This document shows, one piece after another, positions 6,357 through 61,271 of a stretch of 64,000 nucleotides of DNA; within the stretch, counting starts at the first letter, position 1; each line of letters begins with the position of its first letter. Origin of the DNA: Candidatus Fusicatenibacter intestinigallinarum. Its GTDB lineage: Bacteria; Bacillota; Clostridia; Lachnospirales; Lachnospiraceae. The DNA is taken from positions 43,251 to 107,250 of the forward strand of contig DWWU01000016.1 of the NCBI GenBank assembly GCA_019119555.1, in the 5' to 3' direction. The translations under genes were made by a program, and so were the position numbers. The notes beneath the pieces were generated by a model, which ran no database searches, was not told where the DNA came from, and saw nothing but the letters and a program-made list of their open reading frames with translations.

Positions 6357-6450
6357 GTAACAGTTCAGCCAGCTGAACTGTTACGGCATCCGGCCATTGA
6401 AAATCGCTACGCGATGGACCGGATGCCCACAGGCACTATGCTTTCACATG
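6357..6450 (-). repeat. R1 palindromic element, truncated copy
   Basis: Begins with the 28-bp terminal palindrome (arms GTAACAGTTCAGC/GCTGAACTGTTAC), then the CATCCGGCC hairpin with an ATCGC loop stem. The distal GGTCTGTGCA hairpin and last terminal repeat are missing. It ends within two bases of the dCMP deaminase stop codon, so the gene's 3' end may have been formed by this insertion or a later deletion. Confidence 0.85.
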
Positions 6451-6451
6451 G

Positions 6452-6940
6452 TCAGAGACTGACCTCCACTTTTCTGCCGGTGCTCTGGTAACGATAGTAC
6501 CTTACTCCTGCCGCATCCATCATTCTCTTGGACGCAATCACGCCATCGGTGTCCGCATACTTGTCGCATTCATAAATTACCGTGCGGATTCCCGACTGTA
6601 TGATCGCCTTTGCACATTCATTGCACGGGAACAGGGTCACATAAATCTTGGCGCCCTCCAGGCTTCCTCCCCGGTAATTAAGAATCGCATTCAGCTCGCT
6701 GTGCGTGCTGTACAGATACTTGCTTTTCAGGGGGTCTTCCGCGTCCCTGGCCCACGGAAACTCGTCGTCGGAGCATCCGATGGGGAACCCGTTATATCCC
6801 ATGGATAAAATTTTGTTGTCCGCGCTGACAATGCAGGCGCCCACCTGCGTATGGGGATCCTTGGAGCGCAGTCCGGAAAGCTTTGCGACTCCCATAAAAT
6901 ATTCGTCCCATGTCAGATAATCCTGTCTTTTACCAGTCAT
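6452..6940 (-). CDS. Deoxycytidylate (dCMP) deaminase, ComEB type
   Basis: A 162-residue zinc deaminase that converts dCMP to dUMP for dTTP synthesis. The zinc-binding and proton-shuttle motif reads STHSELNAI, with the two zinc cysteines in FPCNECAKAI. The N-terminal TWDEYFMGVAKLSGLRSKDP and TQVGA are typical of this enzyme. The start at 6940 has GGAAGGAGA immediately upstream; the longer frame from 6994 overlaps the upp stop and lacks a site. It is the last gene of the sua5-ywlE-rpiB-upp cluster. Together with upp it forms a pyrimidine salvage pair. Confidence 0.94.
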   Translation of the reverse strand: MTGKRQDYLTWDEYFMGVAKLSGLRSKDPHTQVGACIVSADNKILSMGYNGFPIGCSDDEFPWARDAEDPLKSKYLYSTHSELNAILNYRGGSLEGAKIYVTLFPCNECAKAIIQSGIRTVIYECDKYADTDGVIASKRMMDAAGVRYYRYQSTGRKVEVSL

Positions 6941-6993
6941 GCCTCTCCTTCCTTTCCGTCGGCAGCAGTCGTCTGACCGGACGGCTGCTCCCA

Positions 6994-7623
6994 TTATTTT
7001 GTCCCGAAAATACGGTCTCCGGCATCTCCCAGTCCCGGTACGATATAGCCGTGATCATTCAGCCGGTCATCCAGTGCGCCGATAAAGAGATCCACATCCG
7101 GATGTTCCTCCTGCATCCGCTTCACTCCCTCCGGAGCCGCAATGATACACATAAAGTGAAGCTTCTTCGCACCCTTCTGTTTCAGCATCGTAATAGCCGC
7201 TGTCGCAGAGCCGCCGGTCGCCAGCATAGGATCCGTCACAAATACCTCTCTGCTTGCAATATCCGACGGGAGCTTGCAGTAGTACTCCACCGGCTCCAGG
7301 GTTGCAGGATCCCGGTACAAACCGATATGTCCGACCTTTGCCGCGGGAATCATCGCCAGCATACCCTCAACCATTCCGAGGCCGGCGCGCAGAATCGGCA
7401 CAACCGCCATCTTCTTTCCCGCAAGCTGGCGGGCCGTCATCCTGCTGATCGGCGTCTCAATCTCCACCGGCTCCAGCGGCAGATCCCTGGTCGCTTCGTA
7501 GCACATCAGCATCGCAACCTCGCTGATCATTTCTCTGAACTCTTTGGAACTTGTGTCTTTTCTGCGGATAATTCCGATTTTATGCTGGATCAGCGGATGA
7601 TCCATGACGATTGTCTTTGCCAT
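6994..7623 (-). CDS. upp: Uracil phosphoribosyltransferase
   Basis: A 209-residue enzyme that makes UMP from uracil and PRPP. The PRPP-binding loop reads [17 protein letters not shown], and the C-terminal uracil-binding segment reads [16 protein letters not shown], both diagnostic. The start at 7623 follows GGAGGA closely; an earlier ATG at 7644 is rejected because this site lies between them. It lies 27 bp after rpiB, as in the B. subtilis ywl-glyA-upp region, which supports an operon. Confidence 0.97.
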
Positions 7624-7650
7624 TTTTTCCTCCTCCCGACGCATTCTGTT

Positions 7651-8082
7651 TTACAGTTCCTCAATCAGACGAATCCTTCTCTGATGGCGCTCCTCGCCGG
7701 AAAACGGTGTGTTGAGGAAAGTCTCCACGATCTTCACCGCCAGTCCCGGTCCGACCACTCGGCCTCCCATTGCCAGAATATTTGCATCATTGTGCAGGCG
7801 GGTCGCTTCCGCGCTGAAGCAGTCGCTACAGAGGGCCGCGCGAATTCCCGGCATCTTATTGGCAGCGATGGATATTCCGATTCCTGTTCCGCAGATCAGA
7901 ATTCCCTTATCGCAGCTGCCGTCAAGAACAGCGTTTCCAACCTTTCTTGCATAGACCGGATAATCCACCGCCTCTGTGCTGTGACATCCGAAATCCTTAT
8001 ACTCCAGTCCCTTACTGTCCAGATATGCCTTTACCTCCTGCATCAGTTCATATCCGCCATGATCACATCCAAGCGCTATCAT
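7651..8082 (-). CDS. rpiB: Ribose 5-phosphate isomerase B
   Basis: 143 residues of the RpiB/LacAB family, interconverting ribose 5-phosphate and ribulose 5-phosphate. The N-terminus MIALGCDHGGYEL contains the Asp-His phosphate-contact residues, and CGTGIGISIAANK supplies the anion hole with its preceding cysteine. C-terminal residues include RHQRRI, matching the phosphate-binding Arg region. The ATG overlaps the stop of the preceding phosphatase-like gene by four bases, a sign of translational coupling. LacA/B roles in tagatose metabolism are unlikely because no lac genes are present. Confidence 0.95.
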   Translation of the reverse strand: MIALGCDHGGYELMQEVKAYLDSKGLEYKDFGCHSTEAVDYPVYARKVGNAVLDGSCDKGILICGTGIGISIAANKMPGIRAALCSDCFSAEATRLHNDANILAMGGRVVGPGLAVKIVETFLNTPFSGEERHQRRIRLIEEL

Positions 8083-8540
8083 CGTCTCAGTTCCTCCTCA
8101 TTCAGTTTTTCCACAATGCCGGAAATGATGTTTTCCAGCATTTCATAACATTTACCATATGACGTCAACGGTTCTCCAAACACCGGTTCCACCTCTTTTT
8201 CCATCTGGAGAAACTCCGAGATGGTATAGATGTCCTCCGCATCCGGATACTCTTCCCGGATCTTATCTCTCTGCGCTTCCTCCATGGTCAGAATCAGATT
8301 GCCTTCCTGCAGATCCTCTGAGGAAAACGCAGTGGACGCATGGCCTTTGGCGGAATAACCGTTGCTGATCAGAACTGCCTCTGCCTTTTGATTGATGGGC
8401 TGCGAGAACAGAACAACCAGCCCCCGGGAATCAATCTCTATCGGACGAAACAGCGGCTTCGTCTTCATGATCACCTTTGCCATCGGCGCCCTGGATGTGT
8501 CGTCTGCATCCACAAAAATCAGCTTTTTATACAATTTCAC
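8079..8540 (-). CDS. Low-molecular-weight phosphatase-like protein lacking the catalytic cysteine (YwlE homologue)
   Basis: 153 residues with the fold signature of low-molecular-weight protein tyrosine/arginine phosphatases. Its position between sua5 and rpiB is the same as ywlE in B. subtilis, a protein-arginine phosphatase. The active-site loop, normally Cys-x5-Arg-Ser near residue 10, reads FVDADDTSRAPMA, so the nucleophilic cysteine position is Asp while the Arg is retained. The C-terminal general-acid region, usually Asp-Pro, reads EPVFGEPLTSYGKC with no Asp-Pro. The frame is otherwise intact and coupled to rpiB, so it is probably a folded but catalytically dead or repurposed protein. 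Confidence 0.8.
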   Translation of the reverse strand: MKLYKKLIFVDADDTSRAPMAKVIMKTKPLFRPIEIDSRGLVVLFSQPINQKAEAVLISNGYSAKGHASTAFSSEDLQEGNLILTMEEAQRDKIREEYPDAEDIYTISEFLQMEKEVEPVFGEPLTSYGKCYEMLENIISGIVEKLNEEELRR

Positions 8541-8555
8541 GTTCCTTACCTCTGC

Positions 8556-9605
8556 CTACGCTTCTATCAGCTTATGTCCCGCCGCTTTCAGAAGCCTGTT
8601 CATAATTGCCTGTCCCATCTTCGGTGTGTCAAACGCCTCCGAATAGATGACATCTACATGATCGCCGTCAAACTCCCGCAGAATCCCATACAGATGCCGG
8701 GCAATGGACGCTTCCTCCGACCGGGCGCCGATGCTCTTCACATCCCCGGCGGAATACTTCCGCCTTGTCTCATCTGTGCAAATGATTCCCACGGTAAGCC
8801 CCCGGGCAATCTGCTCTTCTGCCAGTTCCCGGATTTTCTGCACTACCTTTTCCTCCGGGCCTTCCACAATGGTCAGATCCGCTTTCGGCGCATAATGCTT
8901 ATAACGCATTCCCGGCGCTTTCGGACGGACCGCCGGCTCCTCCGCAAGGATTCCCGGATCCACCTTCACAGTTCCGAGGATCTGCTCCAGCCGTTCACGG
9001 TTCAGATATCCGGGCCGCAGAATCATCGGCGTCTTTTCCGTGAAATCCACAATGGTGGACTCCAGACCGATTTCCACCATACCCCCGTCCAGAATACAGT
9101 CGATCCTGTCGCCCAGATCCTCAATCACATGGGCCGCAGTGGTCGGACTTGGTCTTCCGGAGGTATTGGCGCTCGGCGCGGCCACAAAATCGCCGGCCGA
9201 CTGTATCAGCGCCTGCGCAATTCTGTTTCTGGGAAAGCGCACCGCCACTGTGTTCAGACCGCCTGTCGTTGCCAGAGGCACCACTTCCGTTTTCTCCAGA
9301 ATCATCGTCAGCGGGCCGGGCCAGCACTCCTGGGCCAGTTTTCTGGCATTGTCCGGAATGTTGCGGGCTACGATCTCCAGATCCTCCATCCGGGCAATGT
9401 GTACAATCAAAGGATTGTCGCTTGGCCTGCCCTTCGCCGCATAGATTTTCCGGGAAGCCTCCGCGTCCAGCGCGTTACCGCCCAGACCGTACACGGTTTC
9501 CGTGGGGAACGCCACCAGACCGCCGTCTTTTAAAATTTCTCCGGCTCTCCGTATGGCATCCTCATCCAGGTGTTCTTCTGTCATCTTGGCAACCCATGCC
9601 TTCAT
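8556..9605 (-). CDS. Threonylcarbamoyl-AMP synthase (Sua5/YwlC type)
   Basis: About 349 residues. The N-terminal YrdC domain makes threonylcarbamoyl-AMP from threonine, bicarbonate and ATP for the t6A37 modification of tRNAs. It shows GGLVAFPTETVYGLGGNA and KIYAAKGRPSDNPLIVHI. The C-terminal Sua5 domain follows a linker containing PGMRYKHYAP, the segment that closes over the active site. The chosen ATG at 9605 is preceded by AGGGAG; an upstream ATG at 9632 is less favourable. It heads the cluster leading to ywlE, rpiB, upp and the dCMP deaminase, the first spacer being only about 15 bp. Confidence 0.95.
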   Translation of the reverse strand: MKAWVAKMTEEHLDEDAIRRAGEILKDGGLVAFPTETVYGLGGNALDAEASRKIYAAKGRPSDNPLIVHIARMEDLEIVARNIPDNARKLAQECWPGPLTMILEKTEVVPLATTGGLNTVAVRFPRNRIAQALIQSAGDFVAAPSANTSGRPSPTTAAHVIEDLGDRIDCILDGGMVEIGLESTIVDFTEKTPMILRPGYLNRERLEQILGTVKVDPGILAEEPAVRPKAPGMRYKHYAPKADLTIVEGPEEKVVQKIRELAEEQIARGLTVGIICTDETRRKYSAGDVKSIGARSEEASIARHLYGILREFDGDHVDVIYSEAFDTPKMGQAIMNRLLKAAGHKLIEA

Positions 9606-9697
9606 CTTGTTCACTCCCTGTCTCTTTTTCATGTTCTTTTTTGATTATACCATCGCCGGGGAAAAATGGAAACCACTTTTTGTCTTCCCTTACAGCC

Positions 9698-9740
9698 GAA
9701 AAAGGCCCTGCGCCGTCGGTATCCCCGTACGGCACAGGGC
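9698..9740 (-). terminator. Rho-independent terminator of proS
   Basis: Read on the minus strand, GCCCTG-x-GCCGT pairs with ACGGC-x-CAGGGC around a short loop and is followed by five T residues. It lies 80 bp after the proS stop and before sua5, separating the two transcription units. Confidence 0.85.
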
Positions 9741-9819
9741 TGATTTCCGGTCAGTTTTTCCCCGGCGCGGTGTGTGCATATCATAGAAAGCCACAGCGCC
9801 TGCAGTTGCAACACTTCCG

Positions 9820-11562: not shown

Positions 11563-11590
11563 TGCTTTCATCCTCTTCTGATTATTTTTT

Positions 11591-11723
11591 ATAACAGTTC
11601 AGCCCACTGAACTGTTACGGCATCCGGCCATTGAAAATCGCTTCACGATGGGCCGTATGCCCACAGGCTCTGCGTTTTCATACGGTCTGTGCAGTGAATG
11701 CACAGACCTGGCTGAACTGTAAC
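11591..11723 (-). repeat. R1 palindromic element, full length (133 bp)
   Basis: Complete copy. The terminal palindrome is followed by the GCATCCGGCC/GGGCCGTATGC hairpin, the GGTCTGTGCA/TGCACAGACC hairpin and the end repeat GGCTGAACTGTAAC. The flanking octamers match only loosely (5 of 8). It sits directly upstream of proS, probably within its leader or just before its promoter. Confidence 0.9.
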
Positions 11724-11854
11724 TATGATTCAGAACTCTGCCTCTGTGCGGCTCCGCGGATTTCCCGCAGGCGCCTGCATCCGGCAGTTCCGACATGTAT
11801 GATCTATTATAAACCCGACCGCTTCCTTATGTAAATACCCTCTTTTCATAAAAC

Positions 11855-11882
11855 GTAACCGTTCAGCCAGCTGAACGGTTAC
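11855..11882. repeat. R1 short form (28-bp palindrome)
   Basis: Arms GTAACCGTTCAGC and GCTGAACGGTTAC enclose a CA centre. A further half copy, GAACGGTTAC, follows immediately at 11883-11892, giving a partial tandem. It lies downstream of the PF06541 membrane protein gene. Confidence 0.88.
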
Positions 11883-11947
11883 GAACGGTTACCGCAAAAA
11901 GAGAAGCCCCCGAAGCTCCCATCGCATCTCTGCGGAGACAGGATCCT

Positions 11948-12627: not shown

Positions 12628-12655
12628 GTTACAGTTCAGCAGACTGAACGGTTAC
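12628..12655. repeat. R1 short form with perfect 8-bp target duplication
   Basis: A 28-bp imperfect palindrome beginning GTTACAGTTCAGC and ending ACTGAACGGTTAC. The octamer GGCAGATT is present on both sides (12620-12627 and 12656-12663), which is what insertion with an 8-bp target-site duplication would leave. Confidence 0.92.
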
Positions 12656-16692: not shown

Positions 16693-16720
16693 GTAACCGT
16701 TCAGCCCGCTGAACGGTTAC
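16693..16720. repeat. R1 short form
   Basis: Arms GTAACCGTTCAGC/GCTGAACGGTTAC with a central CC. It lies in the spacer between uxuB and uxaC. Flanking octamers agree at 5 of 8 positions, so the duplication is decayed or absent. Confidence 0.85.
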
Positions 16721-16800
16721 GGCAGCGTCAAAAAGCAACAGGATTGCGGAACCCGGACACAGGTTTCGCAATCCGCAGAAAAACAAGAAGGGAGAACATC

Positions 16801-18242: not shown

Positions 18243-18246
18243 CGGA

Positions 18247-18298
18247 AAGAGCCTCTGTGCGGCAGATACACGTTGATCTGCCCACGGGGCTCTTTTTT
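18247..18298 (+). terminator. Rho-independent terminator of the uxu/uxa operon
   Basis: AAAGAGCC...GGCAGAT pairs with ATCTGCC...GGGCTCTTT, followed by a run of T. It ends the uxuA-uxuB-uxaC transcript. Confidence 0.88.
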
Positions 18299-18380
18299 AT
18301 ATAACAGGGGACCGCATTCCCTGCTATATGAAAACGCTCTGCGGGATACGTACTCGCGCAGAGCAGAAATTTGTCGCAAG
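18298..18380 (-). repeat. R2 repeat (TATATAACAGG hairpin plus GC-rich hairpin)
   Basis: Carries the TATAACAGGG/CCCTGCTATA hairpin and CGCTCTGCG/CGCGCAGAGC hairpin, ending at a GCGACAAATTTC motif read on the minus strand. The same block order occurs at 39829-39924 and, partly, at 63800-63870. Confidence 0.75.
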
Positions 18381-19077: not shown

Positions 19078-19105
19078 GCAACCTTTCAGCCAGCTGAACG
19101 GGAAT
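19078..19105. repeat. R1 short form, degenerate, with 7/8 target duplication
   Basis: A diverged 28-bp copy (core TTCAGCCAGCTGAACGG). Left octamer CGATGATC and right octamer CAATGATC differ at one position. It touches the stop codon of the AraC gene at 19105, so the insertion may have supplied or moved that gene's last codons. Confidence 0.75.
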
Positions 19106-19942: not shown

Positions 19943-20019
19943 CGTTACCGTTCAGCCGGATCTGTGCATTCACTGCGCAGACCTGCTGGAAAGCCCAGTG
20001 CCTGCGCCCGGAGCATCCG
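19943..20019 (+). repeat. R1 element, 5' part only
   Basis: Starts GTTACCGTTCAGCC, continues through the GATCTGTGCA/TGCGCAGACC hairpin and fades out after GCATCCG. It has the same orientation as the full copy at 20114, so the two form a pair about 95 bp apart. Confidence 0.75.
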
Positions 20020-20066
20020 TTTCCGCAGAAAAAGCAGAATCCGTCAGTTATTCATATTTTAAGTCA

Positions 20067-20095
20067 TTGCTGCCGGACCGTCAATGTACTATATT
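20067..20095 (+). promoter_or_regulatory. Predicted promoter of the GH88 gene
   Basis: TTGCTG at 20067-20072, a 17-bp spacer and TATATT at 20090-20095. The start point would be near 20102, so the full R1 element at 20114-20246 would be transcribed as part of the leader. Confidence 0.55.
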
Positions 20096-20113
20096 GAAAC
20101 GGTAACGAAAAAC

Positions 20114-20246
20114 GTTACAGTTCAGCCAGGTCTGTGCATTTACTGCACAGAGCGTATGAAAGCATAGCGCCTGTGGGCATCCGGCCCATCGCGAAGCGAT
20201 TTTCAATGGCCGGATACCGCAACAGTTCAGCTGGCTGAACTGTTAC
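20114..20246 (+). repeat. R1 palindromic element, full length, perfect 8-bp target duplication
   Basis: The best-preserved copy, 133 bp. It begins GTTACAGTTCAGCC, then the GGTCTGTGCA/TGCACAGAGC hairpin, the GCATCCGGCC hairpin enclosing ATCGC/GCGAT, and ends in the 28-bp palindrome. CGAAAAAC is present on both sides (20106-20113 and 20247-20254). No coding capacity is seen. Confidence 0.94.
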
Positions 20247-20285
20247 CGAAAAACCTTATTGCACAAAACAGGAGGATAACGGATT

Positions 20286-21437
20286 ATGCTGTATTCACAG
20301 GATCAGACTTGGGCGTCCGAAGCGCTGGAACGCTTTCTATTAAAAATGACTGTCATGCGCGAGCGTGCATGTACAAAAATTCCCTACACCACAAAAAACG
20401 GAAAATATGACGATAATTCCACACTGGCAGCAGAAAAGAGCATGGGGATCGGCTGGTGGACCAATGGTTTCTGGGCCGGTATGATGTGGCTGCTGTATCA
20501 CGAGACAAAAGAGGAACGGTATGCTGAAATCGCTCGCTTTTCCGAAGAACAGCTGGACACCTGTTTTGATGAATTTTATGATCTCAGCCATGATCTGGGT
20601 TTTGTTTACCAGCCCACCGCCGTTGCTGATTACCGCCTGACCGGTTCACAGGCAGGAAGACGGCGGGGACTTCATGCCGCATGTCTTCTCGCCGGCCGGT
20701 TCAATCCTGCAGGAAATTTTATCCGTGCCTGGAACGACTGGGGCGACGGACGCGACACGACCGGATGGGCGATCATTGACTGTATGATGAATCTGAATCT
20801 TCTTTACTGGGCCAGCGACGAACTCGGCGATCCACGCTTCCGCCAGATCGCAATGCTCCATGCCGATACCGCCATGTCTGCATTTGTACGCCCGGACGGT
20901 TCCGTAAACCACATCGTCTCCTTCGATCCGGAAACAGGAATACTTCTCGGCTCCCTGGGCGGTCAGGGCTACGGCGAAGGTTCCTCGTGGACCCGCGGCC
21001 AGGCGTGGGGCATCTATGGTTTTGCGCTGAGCTATGTTCATACCGGAAAGACGGAGTATCTCGACACAGCAAAGCGGATCGCCCACTACTTTATTTCCAA
21101 TATCCCGGAAGATGGACGGATTCCCACAGACTTCCGCGCTCCGGTGGAACCGTTCTATGAAGACGCTTCCGCCGCCGCGATTGCTGCATGCGGATTTCTT
21201 GAGCTTGCAGACCTTGTGCCTGCGCTGGAAAAAGATCTCTACCGGAAGGCCGCTGTGAAACTGCTCAGAACGCTGGACAGCCGGAACTGTGATTACAATC
21301 CCGACACTGACGGTGTTCTCAGGAACTGTACCGCTGCATACCATGACAAAACGCACGAATTTCATATTGTCTACGGCGACTATTTCTATCTGGAAGCCCT
21401 TTTGATGCTGAAGGGCAGCGACTTCCGCATGTGGTAG
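20286..21437 (+). CDS. Glycoside hydrolase family 88 unsaturated glucuronyl hydrolase
   Basis: 383 residues of an (alpha/alpha)6-barrel hydrolase that removes the 4,5-unsaturated uronic acid left by polysaccharide lyases on glycosaminoglycan or related oligosaccharides. Motifs include GIGWWTNGFWAGMMWLLY, SHDLGFVY with one catalytic Asp, DTTGWAIIDCMMNL with the second Asp that attacks the vinyl ether, and SWTRGQAWGIYGF. There is no signal peptide, so it acts on imported oligosaccharides. AGGAGG precedes the ATG. It extends the neighbouring glucuronate pathway to lyase products, though these enter via KDG rather than UxaC. Confidence 0.94.
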   Translation: MLYSQDQTWASEALERFLLKMTVMRERACTKIPYTTKNGKYDDNSTLAAEKSMGIGWWTNGFWAGMMWLLYHETKEERYAEIARFSEEQLDTCFDEFYDLSHDLGFVYQPTAVADYRLTGSQAGRRRGLHAACLLAGRFNPAGNFIRAWNDWGDGRDTTGWAIIDCMMNLNLLYWASDELGDPRFRQIAMLHADTAMSAFVRPDGSVNHIVSFDPETGILLGSLGGQGYGEGSSWTRGQAWGIYGFALSYVHTGKTEYLDTAKRIAHYFISNIPEDGRIPTDFRAPVEPFYEDASAAAIAACGFLELADLVPALEKDLYRKAAVKLLRTLDSRNCDYNPDTDGVLRNCTAAYHDKTHEFHIVYGDYFYLEALLMLKGSDFRMW

Positions 21438-24934: not shown

Positions 24935-25570
24935 CAAAAAAAGCACCCGTTAGCAACAAGTTATGCGCAAGGGACCAAACATCGCCAGCTGCCTCCGGGT
25001 GCCTGACAGTCTTTTCTGTCTTTGCCGTTTCCGACTCTGTGATATACAAAAACAGCAGACAAAGCTGCCATTCCGGGAAAATCTCTTTTTCTGCGCCGCG
25101 GCTCTCTCACCGCTGTCCGACAGAAATATGTATTCCTGCGGTCCATGCAGAAAACGCACAGACCTTACTGAACGGTAACGCGCCAGAACTCTGTTCTGCA
25201 GATTTCCCTTATTTTTATAGTTTCCAAAGAACTCCCACAGCAGTTTTCGTAAAAGCTCTGCCGTCTGCCCGCGAAAGCAGCAACTCAGCCAGTGGATCCG
25301 TAAAACCAAAGATACAGACCTGGCAAAACCGGCATGCATCGTCAATAATACTGCGGGAAAATACCGAAGAAGCAAAACGGTCACAAAGAATCTGCAGCCG
25401 CTCACCCAACGGAACGCTGCGAAAATTTCTGATAAACAAGACCAGCAGGAATCACAGGCGGGAGAAGATGCACCTTTTCCCGAAACCCGTACTGCTGTAT
25501 TGGTTCTTTCTTTCATTATACCGAAGAAAGCCGAAAAAACAACCCTCAAATTATGAAAAAAGTGTTAAGT
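24935..25570. other. Gap of about 640 bp without a recognisable gene
   Basis: Short open frames occur on both strands but none has a ribosome site, family resemblance or codon use like the neighbours. A minus-strand frame at 25215-25439 beginning with TTG might be a gene remnant; it matches nothing I recognise. A decayed R1 terminus sits at 25156-25179. Confidence 0.5.
25156..25179 (-). repeat. R1 terminal fragment
   Basis: GCACAGACCTTACTGAACGGTAAC matches the distal end of the full element (GCACAGACCTGGCTGAACTGTAAC) with a few changes. The rest of the element is gone. Confidence 0.6.
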
Positions 25571-26409: not shown

Positions 26410-26429
26410 CATTTCCTGCAAGCGGAGCG

Positions 26430-26470
26430 TTTTCATATAACAGGATACGCAGTTTCCTGTTATATGAAAA
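26430..26470. repeat. R2-like inverted repeat after mecA
   Basis: TTTTCATATAACAGGA pairs with TCCTGTTATATGAAAA. The AT-rich half of the R2 repeat is recognisable here without the GCGACAAATTTC part. Confidence 0.65.
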
Positions 26471-26520
26471 AAGCGCCGCGTCTGCTCACCCCAATGGGGT
26501 GACGGACGCGGCGCTTTTTT
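26469..26520 (+). terminator. Strong terminator of mecA
   Basis: AAAGCGCCGCGTC pairs with GACGCGGCGCTTT, with an inner CACCCC/GGGGTG stem, followed by a T run. With its A tract on the left it can also work for the ferredoxin gene on the other strand. Confidence 0.9.
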
Positions 26521-27216: not shown

Positions 27217-27337
27217 GTGACAGTTCAGCCAGGTCTGTGCATCCACTGCACAGACCGTATAAAAGCATATTTCCTGTGAGCATCCGTCCCATCACAAAGC
27301 GATTTTCAACGGCTGGATGCGGATGAAACGGCTGAAG
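27217..27337 (+). repeat. R1 element, diverged near-full copy
   Basis: Begins GTGACAGTTCAGCCAGG and contains the GGTCTGTGCA/TGCACAGACC hairpin, then the CATCCG region with AAGCGATTTTCAACGGC. The terminal 28-bp palindrome is scrambled. Located 20 bp after the DUF1858 stop. Confidence 0.75.
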
Positions 27338-30945: not shown

Positions 30946-30990
30946 GTAATAGTTCAGCCAGCTGAACGGTTGCCGCATCCGGCCACTGTA
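30946..30990 (-). repeat. R1 element, truncated copy
   Basis: Starts GTAATAGTTCAGCCAGCTGAACGGTTGC and continues with GCATCCGGCC before ending. It lies between the acyltransferase remnant and the dnaB stop codon at 30998. Confidence 0.8.
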
Positions 30991-36354: not shown

Positions 36355-36382
36355 GTAACAGTTCAGCCAGCTGAACTGTTAC
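36355..36382. repeat. R1 short form
   Basis: Intact 28-bp palindrome (GTAACAGTTCAGC/GCTGAACTGTTAC). Flanks AGCGATAG and GGCGATAC share GCGATA, 6 of 8 positions, in keeping with a decayed target duplication. Confidence 0.88.
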
Positions 36383-38194: not shown

Positions 38195-38305
38195 AGCGTT
38201 ATCTCTCAGACAGGCCCGCACACATGCATCCCCGCATGTATCCCGACCGGTTTTCTCCTTTTTGCTTTATTTTATTCCATCTCCTTTTTACTTGTCAACC
38301 CACAG

Positions 38306-38362
38306 TGCGAAGGGATTATCAATTGCCGGATGCAGTAACAGTTCAACGGGCCGAACTGCTAC
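38306..38362 (+). repeat. R1 element, distal half
   Basis: GCGAAGGGATTATCAATTG corresponds to the loop of the CATCCGGCC hairpin, followed by CCGGATGC and the palindrome GTAACAGTTC...GAACTGCTAC. The proximal half is absent. It lies 35 bp upstream of the promoter at 38397. Confidence 0.75.
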
Positions 38363-39828: not shown

Positions 39829-39924
39829 CGATCGCTTCAGCGACAGATTTCTGCTCCGCGCGAGTGCGCATCCCGCGGGGCATTTTTATATAGCAGGAAA
39901 CAGGTTTCCTGCTATATAAAAAAC
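39829..39924 (+). repeat. R2 repeat, full copy, doubling as terminator
   Basis: TTCAGCGACAGATTTC is followed by the hairpin GCTCCGCG/CGCGGGGC and a T tract, then TATATAGCAGGAAAC/GTTTCCTGCTATATA. In this place the first hairpin would terminate the preceding oxidoreductase gene; the second faces the tRNA gene on the other strand. Confidence 0.8.
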
Positions 39925-43232: not shown

Positions 43233-43339
43233 ATGCAATCCTCCTTTACGCTATTTTAACACAGATCAGCGGACAGGTAAATGGAGACTGTTTACCGTTT
43301 CTGAGGGCACTGTGTCTTATCCGGATTGTGCGGGAACCG

Positions 43340-43362
43340 GGCAGACCTGGCGGAACTGTAAC
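43340..43362 (-). repeat. R1 terminal fragment
   Basis: GGCAGACCTGGCGGAACTGTAAC resembles the distal 23 bases of the full element. Located between the serine hydrolase start and the tRNA promoter. Confidence 0.55.
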
Positions 43363-43752: not shown

Positions 43753-43781
43753 GATCATAGCAATTTATTTGACAACTAAAT

Positions 43782-43950
43782 AAACAGTTGGTGCCGCAGG
43801 CAGAGCGCTGCGGAGAATAGGGAAACAGGTGAAAGGCCTGTGCGATCTCGTCACTGTATGCAGTAGCGTGTTGCAAAAAATGTCACTGAGAAATCGGGAA
43901 GGCTGCAATACGTGTTGATCTGTGAGCCAGGAGACCTGCCAGCTGTGGTA
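43782..43950 (+). ncRNA. Cobalamin riboswitch aptamer
   Basis: The B12 box GCCAGGAGACCTGCC is at about 43926-43940. Upstream are the conserved GGGAAACAGGTGAAAGGCCTG stretch split over the core stems and AATCGGGAAGGC. This order is the class I/adenosylcobalamin aptamer. It precedes the exported chelatase gene and an intrinsic terminator, so cobalamin should switch off the operon. Confidence 0.94.
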
Positions 43951-44093
43951 CGGGGATTTCGAATTCCAGATCACGAGGTTTGATTGTACCGAAATACTTT
44001 GTCCGGTTCTGAAAGAACAGATCTGTGTGTCTGCGCAGCCGCCTGCGTATTCCGCACGTTTTGCTCCAGAAAGACCGCGGCAATTTTTACGAC

Positions 44094-46074: not shown

Positions 46075-46102
46075 GCACCAGTTCAGCCAGCTGAACTGTA
46101 AC
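46075..46102. repeat. R1 short form inserted in a hairpin loop, 7/8 target duplication
   Basis: GCACCAGTTCAGC...GCTGAACTGTAAC. Left flank GAAAATCC and right flank GAAAATTC match 7 of 8. Outside these, CTGTCATATC (46052) pairs with GATATGACAG (46116), so the insertion lies in the loop of an older hairpin. Confidence 0.85.
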
Positions 46103-49083: not shown

Positions 49084-50193
49084 ATGGAGGATTTTTACTT
49101 CTATACCGAGGGACTGACCGTTGGGTATGACGGCGTCCCGCTGGTCAAAAATATCAGAATTCATATGAAAAAAGGGGAAATTCTGACTCTGATCGGACCA
49201 AACGGCGCAGGAAAAACCACTATTCTTCGGAGCATCATCCGACAGCTTGCACCTCTTGGCGGCGTCGTCTGGCTGGACGGAAAACAGACAGAAAAAATGA
49301 GCGGCAGGGAACTGTCCAGGAAACTGTCGGTTGTGCTGACTGAGAGAATCCGCCCGGAAATGATGACCTGCGAGGATGTGGTGGCCACCGGCCGCTACCC
49401 TTATACCGGAACATTCGGCATACTCACCAGCGAGGACCGGCACATCGTACGGGAATCCATGGAACTGGTTCATATTCTGGAGCTGAAAGACCGGGATTTC
49501 CTGGAAATCAGCGACGGCCAGAAACAGCGGGTCATGCTGGCGAGAGCCCTCTGTCAGCAGCCGGATATTATCGTCCTGGACGAACCGACGTCCTTTCTTG
49601 ATATCCGCTACAAGCTGGAATTTCTGTCCATCCTTCAGACCATGGCCAGAACAAAAAACCTTTCGGTTCTGATGTCCCTGCATGAACTCGACCTGGCCGG
49701 CAGAATTTCGGACAAAATCGCCTGTGTCAGCGGAGATAAAATTGACCGGTTCGGAACACCTGAAGAGATTTTTACTGAGGGATACATTCCGAAACTGTAT
49801 CAGATGACCACAGGATTCTACGACGGACGAACCGGAGATCTGGAACTTCCGCGTCCGGAAGGCAAACCGGAACTCCTGGTAATTGCCGGAAACGGCACCG
49901 GCACCTCTCTGTTCCGAAAGCTTCAGCGGGAACAGCGCCCCTTCGCCGTCGGCATTCTCTGGGAAAACGATCTGGATTATCCGGCAGCCCGTGCCCTGGC
50001 GGCTCAGGTGGTAAGTGTCAGAGCGTTTCATCCCATAGAAACATCGAAAAAAGAACAGATGAAACAGCTTGCGGATCAGTGCCGGGCTGTATTCTGTACT
50101 CTCCCGCCGGAGGAAATGACCGGCATGGCGGCAGCCCTCCGGGAAATCAGGGACTACGCCGCATCTCTGGGAAAACTCTGTTCGGATCCCTGA
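49084..50193 (+). CDS. ABC transporter ATPase, FecE/BtuD family, with C-terminal extension
   Basis: 369 residues. The ATPase (about 1-255) has Walker A GPNGAGKTT, signature ISDGQKQRV (in place of LSGGQ), Walker B IIVLDEPTS and the switch His in SLHELD. An extra C-terminal domain of about 110 residues follows (LLVIAGNGTGTSLFRKLQ ... FCTLPPEEMTGMAAALREI) with a Rossmann-like strand-helix pattern. The extension is not usual for FecE and its purpose is unknown; a regulatory or nucleotide-binding role is possible. Start 4 bp after the permease stop. Confidence 0.93.
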   Translation: MEDFYFYTEGLTVGYDGVPLVKNIRIHMKKGEILTLIGPNGAGKTTILRSIIRQLAPLGGVVWLDGKQTEKMSGRELSRKLSVVLTERIRPEMMTCEDVVATGRYPYTGTFGILTSEDRHIVRESMELVHILELKDRDFLEISDGQKQRVMLARALCQQPDIIVLDEPTSFLDIRYKLEFLSILQTMARTKNLSVLMSLHELDLAGRISDKIACVSGDKIDRFGTPEEIFTEGYIPKLYQMTTGFYDGRTGDLELPRPEGKPELLVIAGNGTGTSLFRKLQREQRPFAVGILWENDLDYPAARALAAQVVSVRAFHPIETSKKEQMKQLADQCRAVFCTLPPEEMTGMAAALREIRDYAASLGKLCSDP

Positions 50194-50195
50194 AC

Positions 50196-50227
50196 CTGCG
50201 GGCATCCGGCCGTTGAAAATCGCTTCT
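50196..50227 (-). repeat. R1 internal fragment
   Basis: GGGCATCCGGCCGTTGAAAATCGCTTCTC matches the central hairpin only. It starts immediately after the ATPase stop. Confidence 0.65.
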
Positions 50228-50286: not shown

Positions 50287-50418
50287 AGAACCGTTCAGCC
50301 AGCTGAGCCGCTACTGCATCCGCCCATTGAAAACCGCTTCGCGATGGGCCGGATGCCACAGGTATTATGCTTTTCCACGGTCTGCGCAGTGAATGCACAG
50401 ACCTGGCTGAACTGTAAC
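50287..50418 (-). repeat. R1 palindromic element, full length, slightly diverged
   Basis: Has the 28-bp palindrome (with GAGCCGCTAC at its right arm), the GCATCC/GGATGC hairpin enclosing the GCTTCGCGATGGG region, the GGTCTGCGCA/TGCACAGACC hairpin and the final GGCTGAACTGTAAC. Flanks TAGAATCA and TGAAATCA agree at 6 of 8. It lies just upstream of the GH3 gene. Confidence 0.88.
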
Positions 50419-53614: not shown

Positions 53615-53642
53615 TCAACAGTTCAGCCAGCTGAACTGTTAC
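53615..53642. repeat. R1 short form
   Basis: TCAACAGTTCAGC/GCTGAACTGTTAC. Flanks do not match. Lies between the LysR and U32 peptidase genes. Confidence 0.82.
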
Positions 53643-55681: not shown

Positions 55682-55698
55682 GGTTTTTCTGCTTCTCC

Positions 55699-56121: not shown

Positions 56122-56132
56122 AGACACTCCTT

Positions 56133-56468: not shown

Positions 56469-56472
56469 TTTT

Positions 56473-58140
56473 TTATGCCTCCATAATAATCGGCAGGATC
56501 ATAGGTCTTCTCTTTGTGCGTTTCCACACAAAATCTCCAAGCGCATCCTTTACTGCCGATTTTATCTTGCCCCAGTCCGAAATACGGCGGTTCAGACAGG
56601 AATCGAGCGCTTCCTCCACAACTTCACGGGCTTCGCCCATCAGATCCTCGGATTCTCTCACATAGACAAAACCGCGGGATACGATATCCGGACCTGCGAG
56701 AAGCTGATTGCTTCTTTTTTCCAGCGTGAGAACCACCACCATAATACCGTCCTCCGACAGATGCTGGCGGTCACGCAGTACAATATTTCCCACATCGCCG
56801 ACGCCAAGGCCGTCGACCATAATAGCTCCTGTGGGCGCCTGACCTTCCGCCAGTTCTGCTCCGCTGTCGTCCAGCGACAGCACATCCCCTGAATGCATCA
56901 GGAAAATATGATCTTTCGGTATTCCAAGGCTCTGGGCAATTCCCGCATGAGCCTTCAGATGACGGTACTCACCGTGAACCGGAATCGAATATTTTGGCTT
57001 CACAAGGGAATAGATCAGTTTGATTTCTTCCTGGCAAGCATGTCCGGACACATGGACATTCTGGAAGATAACGTCCGCGCCCTGCTCCGACAGATCGTTG
57101 ATAATATTCGACACAGCCTTCTCATTGCCCGGAATCGGGTTTGAGCTGAAAATCACCGTATCTCCCGGCTTGATGGATACCTTTTTGTGAAGATGAGCCG
57201 CCATTCTGGACAGCGCCGCCATAGACTCTCCCTGGCTTCCGGTGGTGATCAGCACCAGCTGTTCATCTGTATAATTTTTCATCTGCTCAATGTCGATCAG
57301 CGTATTTTCAGGAATCTGAATGTAGCCCAGCTCCTGGGCAGTGGAGATTACATTGACCATACTGCGGCCTTCCACCACCACCTTGCGGCCAAACTTATAC
57401 GCGGAATAGATAATCTGCTGCACACGGTCCACATTGGACGCGAACGTGGCAATGATGATCCGGCTGTTCCGGTGTTCCGCAAACAGTCCGTCGATCGTAT
57501 GGCCTACGGTGCGCTCCGACATGGTAAATCCGGGCCGCTCCGCGTTGGTGCTGTCGCACATCAGCGCAAGCACTCCCTTCTTTCCGATCTCCGCGAAACG
57601 CTGAAGATCAATCGCATCGCCGAATACCGGAGTGTAATCCACCTTAAAGTCACCGGTGTGAACCACGATGCCCGCCGGCGAATAGATCGCAAGAGCCGCC
57701 GCATCTGCAATGCTGTGATTTGTTTTGATAAATTCAATCCGGAATGCCCCCAGATTAATGGACTGCCCGTGGCGGATTGTCTTTCTCTTCGTCGTCCGCA
57801 GCAGTCCATGCTCCTTCAGTTTATTCTCAATCAGACCAATGGTCAGTTTTGTGGCATAAACCGGAACGTTTACCTCCTTCAGAACATATGGCAGCGCTCC
57901 GATATGGTCTTCATGACCGTGGGTGATGACAAATCCCTTTACCTTGTTAATATTATTTTTCAGATAGGTCACATCCGGGATTACCAGGTCGATTCCCAGC
58001 ATATCATCTTCCGGGAAAGCCAGTCCACAGTCCACAACAATAATACTGTCCTCATACTCGAAGGCAGTAATATTCATTCCGATCTGCTCCAGTCCGCCGA
58101 GCGGAATGATCTTTAATTTACTTGTATTATCCTTTTTCAA
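56473..58140 (-). CDS. rnj: Ribonuclease J
   Basis: 555 residues, the usual length. The metallo-beta-lactamase domain shows VITHGHEDHIGALPY (zinc ligands), KTNHSIADA, VVHTGDFKVDYTPV, and CDSTNAERPG; the beta-CASP domain and C-terminal oligomerisation part follow. The enzyme degrades and processes RNA, both as endonuclease and 5'-3' exonuclease. The start is a TTG at 58140 behind GGAGGTG with tight spacing; the ATG at 58191 leads to a basic extension unlike relatives. Confidence 0.95.
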   Translation of the reverse strand: MKKDNTSKLKIIPLGGLEQIGMNITAFEYEDSIIVVDCGLAFPEDDMLGIDLVIPDVTYLKNNINKVKGFVITHGHEDHIGALPYVLKEVNVPVYATKLTIGLIENKLKEHGLLRTTKRKTIRHGQSINLGAFRIEFIKTNHSIADAAALAIYSPAGIVVHTGDFKVDYTPVFGDAIDLQRFAEIGKKGVLALMCDSTNAERPGFTMSERTVGHTIDGLFAEHRNSRIIIATFASNVDRVQQIIYSAYKFGRKVVVEGRSMVNVISTAQELGYIQIPENTLIDIEQMKNYTDEQLVLITTGSQGESMAALSRMAAHLHKKVSIKPGDTVIFSSNPIPGNEKAVSNIINDLSEQGADVIFQNVHVSGHACQEEIKLIYSLVKPKYSIPVHGEYRHLKAHAGIAQSLGIPKDHIFLMHSGDVLSLDDSGAELAEGQAPTGAIMVDGLGVGDVGNIVLRDRQHLSEDGIMVVVLTLEKRSNQLLAGPDIVSRGFVYVRESEDLMGEAREVVEEALDSCLNRRISDWGKIKSAVKDALGDFVWKRTKRRPMILPIIMEA

Positions 58141-58202
58141 ATAGCACCTCCGTCTGAGAGGGCGCACCCCTCCCTGTTTTTCCGAACACAAAGAATGTCA
58201 TG

Positions 58203-58460
58203 TTACTCGAACTCAACATCATCCTCCAGCATCTGGGAAAACACTCCGGACACGGCTTCAAACTCGACCTCGTCTTCCACCATCACATACTCGCTTTCCT
58301 CTCCCTGGGACGACGGGAGCTCTTTTAAGATATAGGCATTCGCCTCACTCTGCATAGAATCAGAGACCAGAAGATAATTGATTCCGCTGATCCTGGTCTG
58401 CTCCTCTATGTAAAATTCCTCTTTCGTTCCGTCATCTGCTGTAAATGTAATTTTTTCCAT
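58203..58460 (-). CDS. DUF1292-family protein (YrzB-like)
   Basis: 85 residues, acidic. It matches DUF1292 (YrzB), a small protein of unknown function found after ruvX and ireB in Firmicutes. Features are MEKITFTADDGTKEEFYIEEQ, INYLLVSD and an acidic C-terminus. An R1 element is wedged between it and ruvX, where in other genomes the genes usually follow closely. Confidence 0.88.
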   Translation of the reverse strand: MEKITFTADDGTKEEFYIEEQTRISGINYLLVSDSMQSEANAYILKELPSSQGEESEYVMVEDEVEFEAVSGVFSQMLEDDVEFE

Positions 58461-58497
58461 ACAATATTCCTTCGATAATTCTATATAATAACCGGCT

Positions 58498-58601
58498 GTT
58501 ACAGTTCATCCAGGTCTGTGCATTCACTGCACAGACCGTATAAAATCGCAGAACCTGCGGGCACCCGGCCCATCGCGAAGCGATTTTCAATGGACTGTTA
58601 C
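58498..58601 (+). repeat. R1 element with internal deletion
   Basis: Begins GTTACAGTTCATCCAGG, has the GGTCTGTGCA/TGCACAGACC and GCACCCGGCC regions and AAGCGATTTTCAATGG, then jumps straight to ACTGTTAC. Most of the second arm of the CCGGCC hairpin and one terminus are missing. It interrupts the ireB-ruvX-yrzB order. Confidence 0.85.
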
Positions 58602-58658
58602 GATAACTGCGCGCTCCGGCCGGCTGCACATCGGCCCGGAATTCCGCTCCATACTCTG

Positions 58659-59093
58659 TCATTCCTGACGGTTCATCGCAAGATAATCCAGATATCCCTG
58701 CAGAATAAAAACAGCCGCAAGCATATCCACATATTCCTTCCGGTTTTCTCTCCGTATCCCTGTTTCCATCATGGTTCTGTCCGCCTCAACCGTCGTAAGA
58801 CGCTCATCCCACATGACAACATGCAGGCCTGTCCGCTTTTCCAGCATTTTCTGAAATTCCAGCGATTTCTCAGCCCGCTCTCCGATATCATTATTCATAT
58901 GCTTCGGAAGACCCAGTACAATTCTCTCTACCTTATACTGGTCAACCAATTCTTCAATCCTGGCAAGCGTCTGACGCAGTTTCTTTTCCGACTTTCTGCG
59001 GATGATCTCCACACCCTGCGCAGTCAGGCCAAGAGGGTCGCTGACAGCTACCCCTACCGTTTTTGAACCAAAATCCAGTCCCATAATCCGCAT
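58659..59093 (-). CDS. ruvX: Putative Holliday junction resolvase / pre-16S nuclease YqgF (RuvX)
   Basis: 144 residues with the RNase H-like fold. [22 protein letters not shown] holds the first catalytic Asp, [12 protein letters not shown] and [15 protein letters not shown] the others. E. coli YqgF matures the 16S rRNA 5' end; a resolvase role has also been proposed. Start 6 bp after ireB, as in most Firmicutes. Confidence 0.95.
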
Positions 59094-59099
59094 ATCAGA

Positions 59100-59369
59100 C
59101 TATTTCCTTTTCCAGGATTCGTTCCTGATATACTCTTTGAGAAGTTCCTCCACAAGCTCGTCACGCTCAACCTTCATAATCATACTGCGCGCGCCTTTAT
59201 AGCTGGTAATATACGTAGGATCTCCGGACATAATATATCCCACAATCTGATTGACCGGGTTATACCCTTTCTCAGCCATTGCATTGTAGACTACATTCAG
59301 AACCTCTTTCACCTGGATCTCCGGCTCTGTTTTTACCTTAAAATATTGTGTGTTGCTCGTTCCTGACAT
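59100..59369 (-). CDS. IreB-family regulatory phosphoprotein (DUF965)
   Basis: 89 residues of the IreB (YrzL/DUF965) family. The N-terminus MSGTSNTQYFKVKTEPEIQVKEVLNVVYNAM keeps the Thr-rich segment phosphorylated by the Ser/Thr kinase IreK in Enterococcus faecalis. NPVNQIVGYIMSGDPTYITSY is the conserved core. alaS often lies upstream in other Firmicutes, but here the upstream gene is a transporter. Confidence 0.95.
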   Translation of the reverse strand: MSGTSNTQYFKVKTEPEIQVKEVLNVVYNAMAEKGYNPVNQIVGYIMSGDPTYITSYKGARSMIMKVERDELVEELLKEYIRNESWKRK

Positions 59370-59463
59370 AGTTTCTTCACGTCCTCAATTTATTAATATC
59401 ATTTTTATTCTAATATACTTTACATAAAAATTCAATGACTATTTGCCAATTTTTGTTTCGCCG

Positions 59464-59536
59464 GGTTACTGTTCCGCCAGGTCTGTGCATCCACTGCACA
59501 GACCGCAGGAAAGTATAGTGCCTGCGGGCATCCGGA
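59464..59536 (+). repeat. R1 element, 5' part only
   Basis: Starts GGTTACTGTTCCGCCAGG, with the GGTCTGTGCA/TGCACAGACC hairpin, and stops after GCATCCGG. The distal half is absent. It lies between ireB and the NSS transporter. Confidence 0.78.
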
Positions 59537-59596
59537 ACTGATACTTTCAGTTTCGCCCGAAAACGGGTCCGATATACCTCTTCAGAAAGATAAAAC

Positions 59597-59636
59597 GCAG
59601 CCCCTGCAATTTCACAAAACGAAATGCAGGGGCTGC
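59597..59636 (-). terminator. Terminator of the NSS transporter gene
   Basis: GCAGCCCCTGCA-TTTC pairs with GAAAT-TGCAGGGGCTGC around a short loop; the minus strand continues GTTTTATC. Confidence 0.8.
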
Positions 59637-59657
59637 AAAATTCACTGTCCGACGTTC

Positions 59658-61013
59658 TCACAGAGTGATACCGCCGAACTGAGCCAACGTATAGGAAATC
59701 AGAATAATCACCAGAAATACCGGCGCAATGTATTTGATCATAATCTCATAGATCCGTTTCCGCCCGAATTTCTCACCGTTTCTTGTCACCTCGTCTGTGA
59801 TCGTCTTCGTTCCGATCACCCATCCCACCAGAATGCAGGTGAACAGTGCCACCAGCGGCATCAGCACGCTGTTGCTCAGATAATCGAAAAAGGTCAGAAG
59901 GTCCATGCCGAGGATCTGAATGCCGGACCATATGCCGTTTCCCAGAGAGACCGGAATTCCTACAGCCAGCGCAAAAATCAGGGTTCCCGTACACGCCGCC
60001 TTCCTGCTGATCCCGAAGTGCTCCATCAGTACAGAGACGATCGCCTCCATAACGGAGACTGAACTGGTCAGCGCCGCAAACAGAACCAGGACAAAGAACA
60101 GGAAGCCGATCACCCTTCCTCCTGCCATGTCTCCGAAAACCTTCGGCAGCGTCACGAACATCAGACCCGGTCCACTGGAAGACATTCCTTCCTCCCCGCT
60201 GAAAATATAAACCGCAGGCACTACCATCAGGCCGGCAAGCAGGGCGACCACCGTGTCAAAAAGTTCAATCTGATTGACCGATTTCGTCAGGCAGACTTCC
60301 TTTTTGGTATATGAGCCGTAAGTGACCATAATTCCCATCGCAAGGCTCATGGAGAAAAACATCTGGCCCATTGCCGCGCAGATGGTTTTCAGGGAAAATT
60401 TTGAAAAATCAGGGAGCAGATAATATCTGGCCCCTTCCAGCGCTCCCGGCAGCGTCAGAATATAGATGCAGATTCCGATGCTCAGCAGCACAAGAAGGGG
60501 CATCATAATGCGGCTGATTTTTTCAATTCCCTTTTCCACGCCGCCCATAACGATCAGCCAGGTGGCAACCAGATAAACCGCAAAATAAATCAGCGGGGAC
60601 ACAGTCGAACCTGTGAACGCCGCAAAAAAGCCGTCCCCGGCTGCTTCCGCAGTCATTCCCTGCAGATAGACCATCATATATTTCAGCACCCATCCGCCGA
60701 TCACGCAGTAATATGGAAGAATGATGACCGGAATTGCCGCCGCCAGATAGCCCAGAAATTTAAACTTCCTGCACAGTTTTTGATATGCCATCACAGGACT
60801 GCTCCCTGTCTTTCGTCCAATCGCAATCTCCGTTGTCATGAGCGCAAAACCGAAAGTCAGCGCCAGTACAATATATACCAGGATAAAAATCCCGCCGCCG
60901 TACTGCGCCGCCAGCGGCGGAAAACGCCACAGGTTTCCCAGTCCCACCGCGCTGCCGGCCGCTGCCAGAACAAATCCAAGCCCTCCGGTAAAACTTCCAC
61001 GTTTCTTTTCCAT
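59658..61013 (-). CDS. Sodium-dependent amino acid transporter, NSS/SNF family
   Basis: 451 residues, about 11 membrane helices. The N-terminus GGLGFVLAAAGSAVGLGNLWRFP is the unwound TM1 sodium/substrate site of LeuT-type transporters. TM6 contains SMSLAMGIMVTYGSYTKK, with the family's unwound segment. It imports an amino acid or related amine with Na+; the substrate cannot be told. It has 11 rather than 12 helices, like many bacterial members. Transcribed alone. Confidence 0.94.
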   Translation of the reverse strand: MEKKRGSFTGGLGFVLAAAGSAVGLGNLWRFPPLAAQYGGGIFILVYIVLALTFGFALMTTEIAIGRKTGSSPVMAYQKLCRKFKFLGYLAAAIPVIILPYYCVIGGWVLKYMMVYLQGMTAEAAGDGFFAAFTGSTVSPLIYFAVYLVATWLIVMGGVEKGIEKISRIMMPLLVLLSIGICIYILTLPGALEGARYYLLPDFSKFSLKTICAAMGQMFFSMSLAMGIMVTYGSYTKKEVCLTKSVNQIELFDTVVALLAGLMVVPAVYIFSGEEGMSSSGPGLMFVTLPKVFGDMAGGRVIGFLFFVLVLFAALTSSVSVMEAIVSVLMEHFGISRKAACTGTLIFALAVGIPVSLGNGIWSGIQILGMDLLTFFDYLSNSVLMPLVALFTCILVGWVIGTKTITDEVTRNGEKFGRKRIYEIMIKYIAPVFLVIILISYTLAQFGGITL

Positions 61014-61060
61014 TGTTCTCTGTTTCCTCCCTCACAATTCCGGATAACCACTGCTCTTTC

Positions 61061-61087
61061 GTAACGGTTCAGCCAGCGAACCGTTAC
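61061..61087. repeat. R1 short form with 7/8 target duplication
   Basis: GTAACGGTTCAGC...GCGAACCGTTAC, 27 bp. Left flank GCTCTTTC and right flank GTTCTTTC differ at one base. Confidence 0.88.
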
Positions 61088-61147
61088 GTTCTTTCTGCGT
61101 CGGCCCGGAACATTCTCTGCCGCCTTTCCCGGCAGCCGTATGTTATT

Positions 61148-61175
61148 GTAACCGTTCGGCCAGCCGAACTGTAAC
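61148..61175. repeat. R1 short form with perfect 8-bp target duplication
   Basis: GTAACCGTTCGGC/GCCGAACTGTAAC. ATGTTATT occurs on both sides (61140-61147 and 61176-61183). Confidence 0.93.
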
Positions 61176-61243
61176 ATGTTATTACAGCATAGCACACTGT
61201 CATATTGCAGTCAACGTTTTTTGTCAAAAGAACGTTCTCTAAG

Positions 61244-61271
61244 ATTGCCGTTCAGCCGGCTGTACAGTTAT
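61244..61271. repeat. R1 short form, decayed
   Basis: ATTGCCGTTCAGCCGGCTGT and following bases keep the core but both ends have drifted. It is the third copy within 210 bp. Confidence 0.7.

Follow-up and report, generated by a model that had tools for sequence, protein, structure and literature searches.

In a 64,000-nucleotide stretch of Candidatus Fusicatenibacter intestinigallinarum DNA (hereafter the window), we characterized a family of palindromic repeats, R1, which is very probably a non-autonomous DNA transposon, i.e., a miniature inverted-repeat transposable element (MITE). R1 is likely to be moved in trans by a longer element with like ends, and the solitary 28-bp palindromes that make up much of the family are likely to be scars of interior deletion. 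The source genome (G000) comprises 2.53 Mb on 45 contigs and is 75.7% complete. Element statistics were obtained from a 464-kb sample of this genome, consisting of the window and 20 stretches chosen around full copies.

Structure, copy number and target-site duplications of R1

R1 is 133 bp long, non-coding and too short to encode a transposase, with 14-bp inverted ends and two internal hairpins, as is characteristic of MITEs. The consensus runs from the terminal repeat GTTACAGTTCAGCC through hairpin 1 (GGTCTGTGCA-loop-TGCACAGACC), a spacer and hairpin 2 (GGCATCCGGCC-CATCGCGAAGCGATTTTCAAT-GGCCGGATGCC) to GTAACAGTTCAGCTGGCTGAACTGTTAC. The last of these is a 28-bp palindrome in which the right end is preceded by an internal, inverted copy of the terminal repeat; in all, R1 holds three copies of its own end, of which two face right and one faces left. 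The parts of the reference copy are as follows.

20114..20246, strand +: reference full R1 copy, 133 bp, with the duplication CGAAAAAC on both sides (8/8 bp)
20106..20113, unstranded: left target-site duplication of this copy
20247..20254, unstranded: right target-site duplication of this copy
20114..20127, strand +: left terminal inverted repeat GTTACAGTTCAGCC
20129..20153, strand +: hairpin 1, GGTCTGTGCA / TGCACAGAGC, 5-nt loop, 9/10 pairs in this copy
20176..20218, strand +: hairpin 2, GGCATCCGGCC ... GGCCGGATACC, inner part CATCGCGAAGCGAT
20219..20246, strand +: 28-bp end palindrome, inverted copy of the terminal repeat plus right terminal repeat

A 152-bp variant of R1 (L054, 9448-9599) carries an extra palindrome half at its right end, and this longer unit is flanked by an 8/8 duplication.

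Allowing up to three mismatches, GTTACAGTTCAGCC was found at 43 sites in the window, compared with a mean of 3.68 and a largest count of 10 over 100 dinucleotide shuffles. A profile built from full R1 copies identified 23 separate window elements at E≤1 (four full or nearly full, 11 of the palindrome type and eight partial), close to the 24 or so copies counted in the initial annotation. The three full copies listed there, at 11591, 20114 and 50287, are all real, with 58498 adding a fourth, nearly full one, and the ten or so bare 28-bp palindromes described correspond to 10 rows found in the window. Genome-wide, the exact end pattern GTWACHGTTCAGNC occurs at 269 sites in G000 and the reversed pattern at none; the window holds 10 exact sites. 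Use of the full copy at 20114 as a query against G000 returned 488 first-look candidates, 40 of which were scored. The 464-kb sample contained 171 R1 elements at E≤1, i.e., 40 full and 131 truncated or reduced to the palindrome. Copies and remnants in G000 number well over a hundred, and rough scaling from the window (10 exact sites, 23 elements) would give about 600-900.

As in other MITEs, these many copies are dispersed and mostly intergenic. Only 16 of 141 sampled elements overlapped gene models by more than 20 bp, as against 85% of random 60-bp placements, the gene models being crude. Placement is strongly intergenic, though not absolutely so: the earlier statement that all copies lie between genes holds for most, and in the window one of 20 elements (16693-16725) overlaps the crude gene models by more than 20 bp.

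The duplications flanking R1 have a fixed length of 8 bp. Among the 40 full copies, 20 carry a duplication matching at 7 or more of the 8 positions, whereas a control that paired the left flank of one copy with the right flank of another (200 shuffles, same small shifts) gave a mean of 0.42 and a maximum of 2. For the palindromes, 122 were found and 51 inside longer elements were dropped; of the 71 solitary ones that remained, 31 carry a duplication of at least 7/8 (control over 300 shuffles, mean 0.37, maximum 4). Duplicated targets are A+T-rich, with a G+C content of 0.36 (46 elements) versus 0.48 between genes, and show a weak symmetric base preference. One copy in the sister species G003 (L036) is inserted inside another palindrome, with an 8-bp duplication seen in its flanks.

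A longer element with like ends and the spread of related MITEs

G000-G006 are the seven genomes of the genus; all other G numbers denote genomes outside it. With R1 as query, matches were obtained in six of 61 genomes, i.e., four of the seven in the genus (G000, G002, G003, G005) plus G025, with one nearly full copy, and G009, with end parts; none of 24 genomes from other families of the order gave a match. Exact end sites in G000 to G006 number 269, 0, 90, 386, 53, 169 and 2, respectively, with 0-2 for the reversed control. Among 48 named stretches with the R1 interior, 36 are Fusicatenibacter metagenome-assembled genomes and 12 are labelled Dorea, Lachnospiraceae bacterium or Lacrimispora saccharolytica An817. 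Confinement to the window, envisaged at the outset, does not apply: R1 is genome-wide in G000 and reaches several genera.

G004, a same-genus genome in which R1 itself was not matched, contains 21 ends of a longer element. These are 100% identical, and the first 18 bases of their 21-bp terminus GTTACAGTTCAGCCAGGTAGC equal those of the R1 left end. Nineteen of the 20 ends that were placed break off no more than 2 bases from a contig end, and the remaining one continues for another 125 bases. The nine right ends have eight distinct flanks, each of which pairs with one of 11 left-end flanks to give an exact 8-bp duplication. The G004 element, more than 264 bp long, has moved, and its copies show no difference in the parts seen. 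Its interior is absent from the assembly, and with it any transposase that it may encode. This element is probably the autonomous partner of R1, which a longer element with like ends would mobilize in trans through its transposase. If so, an uncharacterised transposase making 8-bp duplications stands behind hundreds of mostly intergenic Lachnospiraceae insertions.

The initial annotation had seen no transposase in the window and had suggested a search for a parent insertion sequence. None was found among nine open reading frames tested, a result that covers those frames; the parent search led to the longer mobile element in G004, with no transposase seen between its ends. Pieces read from the G004 ends, which are short, gave no Pfam or NCBIfam match, and a chosen tail of the element gave none in the PDB. 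Outside G004, the tail found only three weak matches (E 0.23-1.26) across 13 genomes, none with like ends next to it. The left end had no match in plasmids, and for the right end 299 family genomes, a set that excluded G004, yielded two weak partial matches and no similar copy. Paired ends 0.6-4 kb apart with a duplication were seen in three rows, two of them the same place, and were rejected, each having an end inside or beside an R1 copy. In L226-L275, searched up to 4.5 kb, no end pair was longer than 246 bp.

Like ends extend further through the family. Several Lachnospiraceae genera contain MITEs with such ends, 7-8/8 duplications and different interiors. G003 has a 141-144-bp family with other hairpins and again a palindromic end, while G004 (L161-L164) and G009 (L166-L169) have families of 194-199 bp and 164-165 bp with related ends, 8/8 duplications being present in four of these eight loci. 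A longer end pattern was found in 10 of 397 family genomes, and end sites number 93 in G200, 37 in G402, 18 in G123, 46 in G254, 176 in G035, 8 in G205 and 1 in G019. Loci around those sites yielded end pairs with duplications of at least 7/8 and lengths of 28-29, 41, 49, 81, 96, 134, 143, 163, 173-174, 188, 211 and 242-246 bp, although chance may account for some of the odd lengths. In viral contigs, there were 10 exact matches to the 18-base end, nine of them judged from end sites only. The match to a 20-base end at L222 8416-8435 was rejected as chance, since it lies within a coding sequence resembling that of a single-stranded DNA-binding protein (SSB), where it encodes part of TTWLNCN; we take the TTWLNCNLWGK of L222 to be an SSB-like motif.

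That the helper belongs to the IS66 family is conceivable, though we regard it as rather doubtful. IS66 elements have GTAA tips and 8-bp duplications, so that R1 resembles them in both respects. The tail read from a G004 end also looked IS66-like by eye, and IS66 genes are present in G005, G009, G200 and G205. However, PF03050 had no match in G000, G002, G003 or G004, where the interior of the element is not in the assembly. Among the seven genomes of the genus, the G005 match is a fragment with a stop; of eight genomes outside it that have like ends, G009, G200 and G205 gave matches and G025, G035, G402, G123 and G254 did not. The IS66 ends that can be read differ from those of R1, being GTAAGCGTCAAATAAGA in G200 and G205 and GTAGGTAATCATCCG in G001, and the remaining IS66 hits have no readable ends. 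A profile of eight local IS66 C-termini ranked the G004 tail 570 of 821 hits, no better than random pieces, and Pfam and NCBIfam were silent on the G004 pieces, short as these are.

Two IS66-like elements with inverted ends GTAAGCGTCAAATAAGA occupy L276 74-2602 and L279 79-2598 in two other genera. At L281 1309-1324, near the end of a broken IS66-like gene of G200, lies GTAACTACTCAGCACC, which loosely resembles the R1 end. This gene was rejected as a parent: it gave three hits in 397 family genomes, one of them the query gene, and no shared ends.

Origin of the solitary palindromes

At one orthologous site, G000 carries a bare palindrome (window 36355-36382) and G003 a full R1 (L106 6112-6244). 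The two flanks, aligned over 376 and 356 bases, share 89% and 85% identity, and the outer right flank directly adjoins. Because the sister species has the full element at the same site, this palindrome at least is an internal-deletion scar. The deletion would be bounded by two direct repeats about 105 bp apart, the terminal repeat and the additional copy of it inside the element, and the extra inverted end beside the terminal end is what would make a palindrome of a deleted copy. The other solitary palindromes would mostly have arisen in the same way. Some may be older than the species split, since L088 holds what may be a decayed counterpart of the palindrome at 12628.

Tn10 offers a parallel: when it is excised nearly precisely, deletion occurs at internal repeats, and the duplication still encloses a short piece of both ends. 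The R1 palindromes likewise contain a short remnant of both ends, in many cases within a duplication, and slippage or recombination at the hairpin-rich interior could produce them in a comparable manner; unlike in Tn10, the substrate of the deletion would be a 133-bp MITE and the outcome a genome-wide family of 28-bp palindromes. Nearly precise excision of Tn10 is named in PMC5991714. More tentatively, we propose that a transposon lineage across the Lachnospiraceae builds one end as a double inverted terminus, and that interior deletion leaving the 28-bp palindrome in the original duplication would be a general route to solitary intergenic palindromes, or even that the palindrome would become the smallest unit a transposase can move. 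If this proposal is correct, a self-scarring design turns a MITE into a REP-like (repetitive extragenic palindromic) family, and the REP-like palindromes of these gut bacteria are transposition footprints and not a separate repeat class. Their origin would be testable by sister-genome comparison.

The palindrome might instead be transposable in itself, with two inward-facing ends back to back that the same transposase would recognise, and solitary copies would then be new insertions. We consider this unlikely, although 31 of the 71 solitary palindromes do lie within 8-bp duplications and 28-29-bp elements with 8/8 duplications also occur in G200, G402 and G123. The third base at the two tips is A/A in 38, A/T in 19 and other in 14 of the 71, which are mostly GTAAC-like at both tips, and an excess of A/A over A/T is what would be expected of a moving unit. 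Against new insertion stands the orthologous site, full in one species and solitary in the other. Moreover, the minimal elements of G200, 29 bp long with 8/8 duplications, join a GTAAC left tip to ATTTCTGCC(C/T)GGCTGAACTGTTAC, the right end of the longer local MITE, as a deletion product would. A length of 28 bp would also leave little room for two bound transposase subunits.

The interpretation of R1 as a MITE mobilized in trans, with palindromes as its deletion scars, has to be set against several findings that weigh against it. No transposase gene was seen between such ends, the interior of the G004 element being missing from the assembly. Comparison of the G000 sample with loci of other genomes gave 14 rows with both flanks aligned, some sites counted twice, from both sides, and among these only one is a full-versus-solitary site. 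The presence/absence sites relative to L088 have diverged flanks and are not clean empty sites. Half of the full copies (20/40) and 40 of the 71 solitary palindromes lack a duplication of at least 7/8; decay by age would explain these. Finally, the third-base statistic counts against the simplest version of deletion. The left tip is GTTAC in 23 of 34 full G000 copies, and simple crossover within the repeats of today's G000 copies would favour A/T, so that older GTAAC-ended copies or another route must be assumed. GTAAC ends are present in several G003 copies.

Hairpins, comparison with known repeats and remaining features of the window

Twelve hand-picked copies from five genera were aligned, the window copy at 50287 being left out. 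Hairpin 1 retains 10/10 pairs in eight copies and 9/10 in four. Hairpin 2 has an unbroken outer stem of at least 10 pairs (G-T allowed) in eight of the 12, with strict counts of 5-8 in the other four that are partly due to single mismatches. Across the five genera, its stem GGCATCCGGCC is replaced by GTGCAAAATCC with pairing mostly kept, and the inner CATCGC(C)GAAG(G)CGAT is mostly retained. Replacement of the stem with retention of pairing suggests that the folded form may be needed, most simply for the movement or persistence of R1.

Such conservation would also be expected if R1 were kept by selection as a structured RNA or a regulatory element of host genes, with mobility secondary. To this may be added that overlap with gene models is 20 bp or less for 125 of the 141 elements sampled, and that convergent gene pairs are under-used (9 of 122 elements versus 17% of random intergenic placements). 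This explanation is nonetheless improbable. A strand test for RNA-level selection on 62 copies revealed no clear bias of G-T over A-C mismatches (8 vs 12 in hairpin 1, 26 vs 18 in hairpin 2 and 31 vs 18 in the end repeats). The elements have no consistent gene side, the nearest gene end being 5' in 64 and 3' in 58, and no consistent orientation in tandem gene contexts (38 same, 34 opposite). The whole window gave no Rfam match to R1 at the gathering score, and 20050-20300 at E≤5 gave three matches, all under it. In addition, 131 of 171 elements are truncated or reduced to the palindrome.

The initial annotation had left open whether R1 was a MITE or of the REP type. REPs are not expected to carry target-site duplications, so the duplications around 31 of the 71 solitary palindromes leave the REP type unsupported, while terminal inverted repeats and 8-bp duplications bear out the MITE. 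That R1 consists of REPs or bacterial interspersed mosaic elements (BIMEs) spread by a REP-associated tyrosine transposase (RAYT) is hardly credible for a 133-bp unit that has terminal inverted repeats and 8-bp target-site duplications, despite its short, mostly intergenic, high-copy palindromes.

Correia/NEMIS, ERIC, RUP and bcr1 elements are short, high-copy, hairpin-forming and largely intergenic, and some behave as MITEs. They differ from R1 in their ends and duplication lengths, and we know of no double-end palindrome that survives alone in any of them. R1 had been described as no recognised named family, and Rfam and a limited literature search, with ISfinder outside their scope, likewise returned no described match, which is a thin basis for novelty. 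QMITE2 of Coxiella burnetii resembles R1 as a MITE with direct repeats (7-9 bp), a stable predicted fold, few full-length copies (ten of 78) and truncated copies said to resemble REPs (PMC10969869). It differs in its terminal repeats of 23-29 bp, its length of about 190 bp and its unrelated host, and the account in that review mentions no constant end palindrome with its own duplication (PMC10969869). Chunjie of Geobacter uraniireducens is likewise a MITE that varies in size, keeps its ends conserved and has another 57 copies that are partial, a likeness of description and not of compared sequences; at 178-235 bp, it is longer than R1 (PMC10969869). Copy numbers for Correia and ERIC are given in the same review (PMC10969869).

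The other R1 copies in the window are listed below.

11591..11723, strand -: full copy; duplication 5/8; missing at the matching place in L088, which is 146 bp shorter there
50287..50418, strand -: full copy, 132 bp; duplication 4/8
58498..58628, strand +: nearly full copy, profile 1-126, right end degraded
6357..6455, strand -: partial copy, profile 35-133
27218..27322, strand +: partial copy, profile 2-106
59465..59536, strand +: partial copy, profile 1-72
19944..20021, strand +: partial copy, profile 1-72
25123..25179, strand -: partial copy, profile 1-57
38303..38361, strand +: partial copy, profile 74-132
43306..43362, strand -: partial copy, profile 1-58
50180..50227, strand -: partial copy, profile 79-127
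30946..30990, strand -: palindrome and start of hairpin 2, profile 89-133
11855..11882, unstranded: solitary 28-bp palindrome; no duplication left, 1/8
12628..12655, unstranded: solitary palindrome; duplication GGCAGATT, 8/8; perhaps with a decayed counterpart at the matching place in L088
16693..16720, unstranded: solitary palindrome; duplication 5/8
19078..19105, unstranded: degraded solitary palindrome; duplication 7/8
36355..36382, unstranded: solitary palindrome; duplication 6/8; full R1 at the orthologous L106 site (6112-6244)
46075..46102, unstranded: solitary palindrome; duplication 7/8
53615..53642, unstranded: solitary palindrome; duplication 4/8
61061..61090, unstranded: degraded palindrome
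61148..61175, unstranded: solitary palindrome; duplication ATGTTATT, 8/8
61244..61271, unstranded: degraded palindrome; duplication 4/8

A second small repeat family, GCGGAGCGTTTTCATATAACAGGATAC, occurs in the window at 18286-18312, 26422-26448, 39875-39901 and 63844-63870, and partly coincides with a 50-bp inverted pair (18293-18342 / 26422-26471) and a 71-bp direct pair (39832 / 63801). A cobalamin riboswitch, scoring well over the gathering score, lies at 43772-43957, directly downstream of the tRNA-Glu and tRNA-Cys genes.

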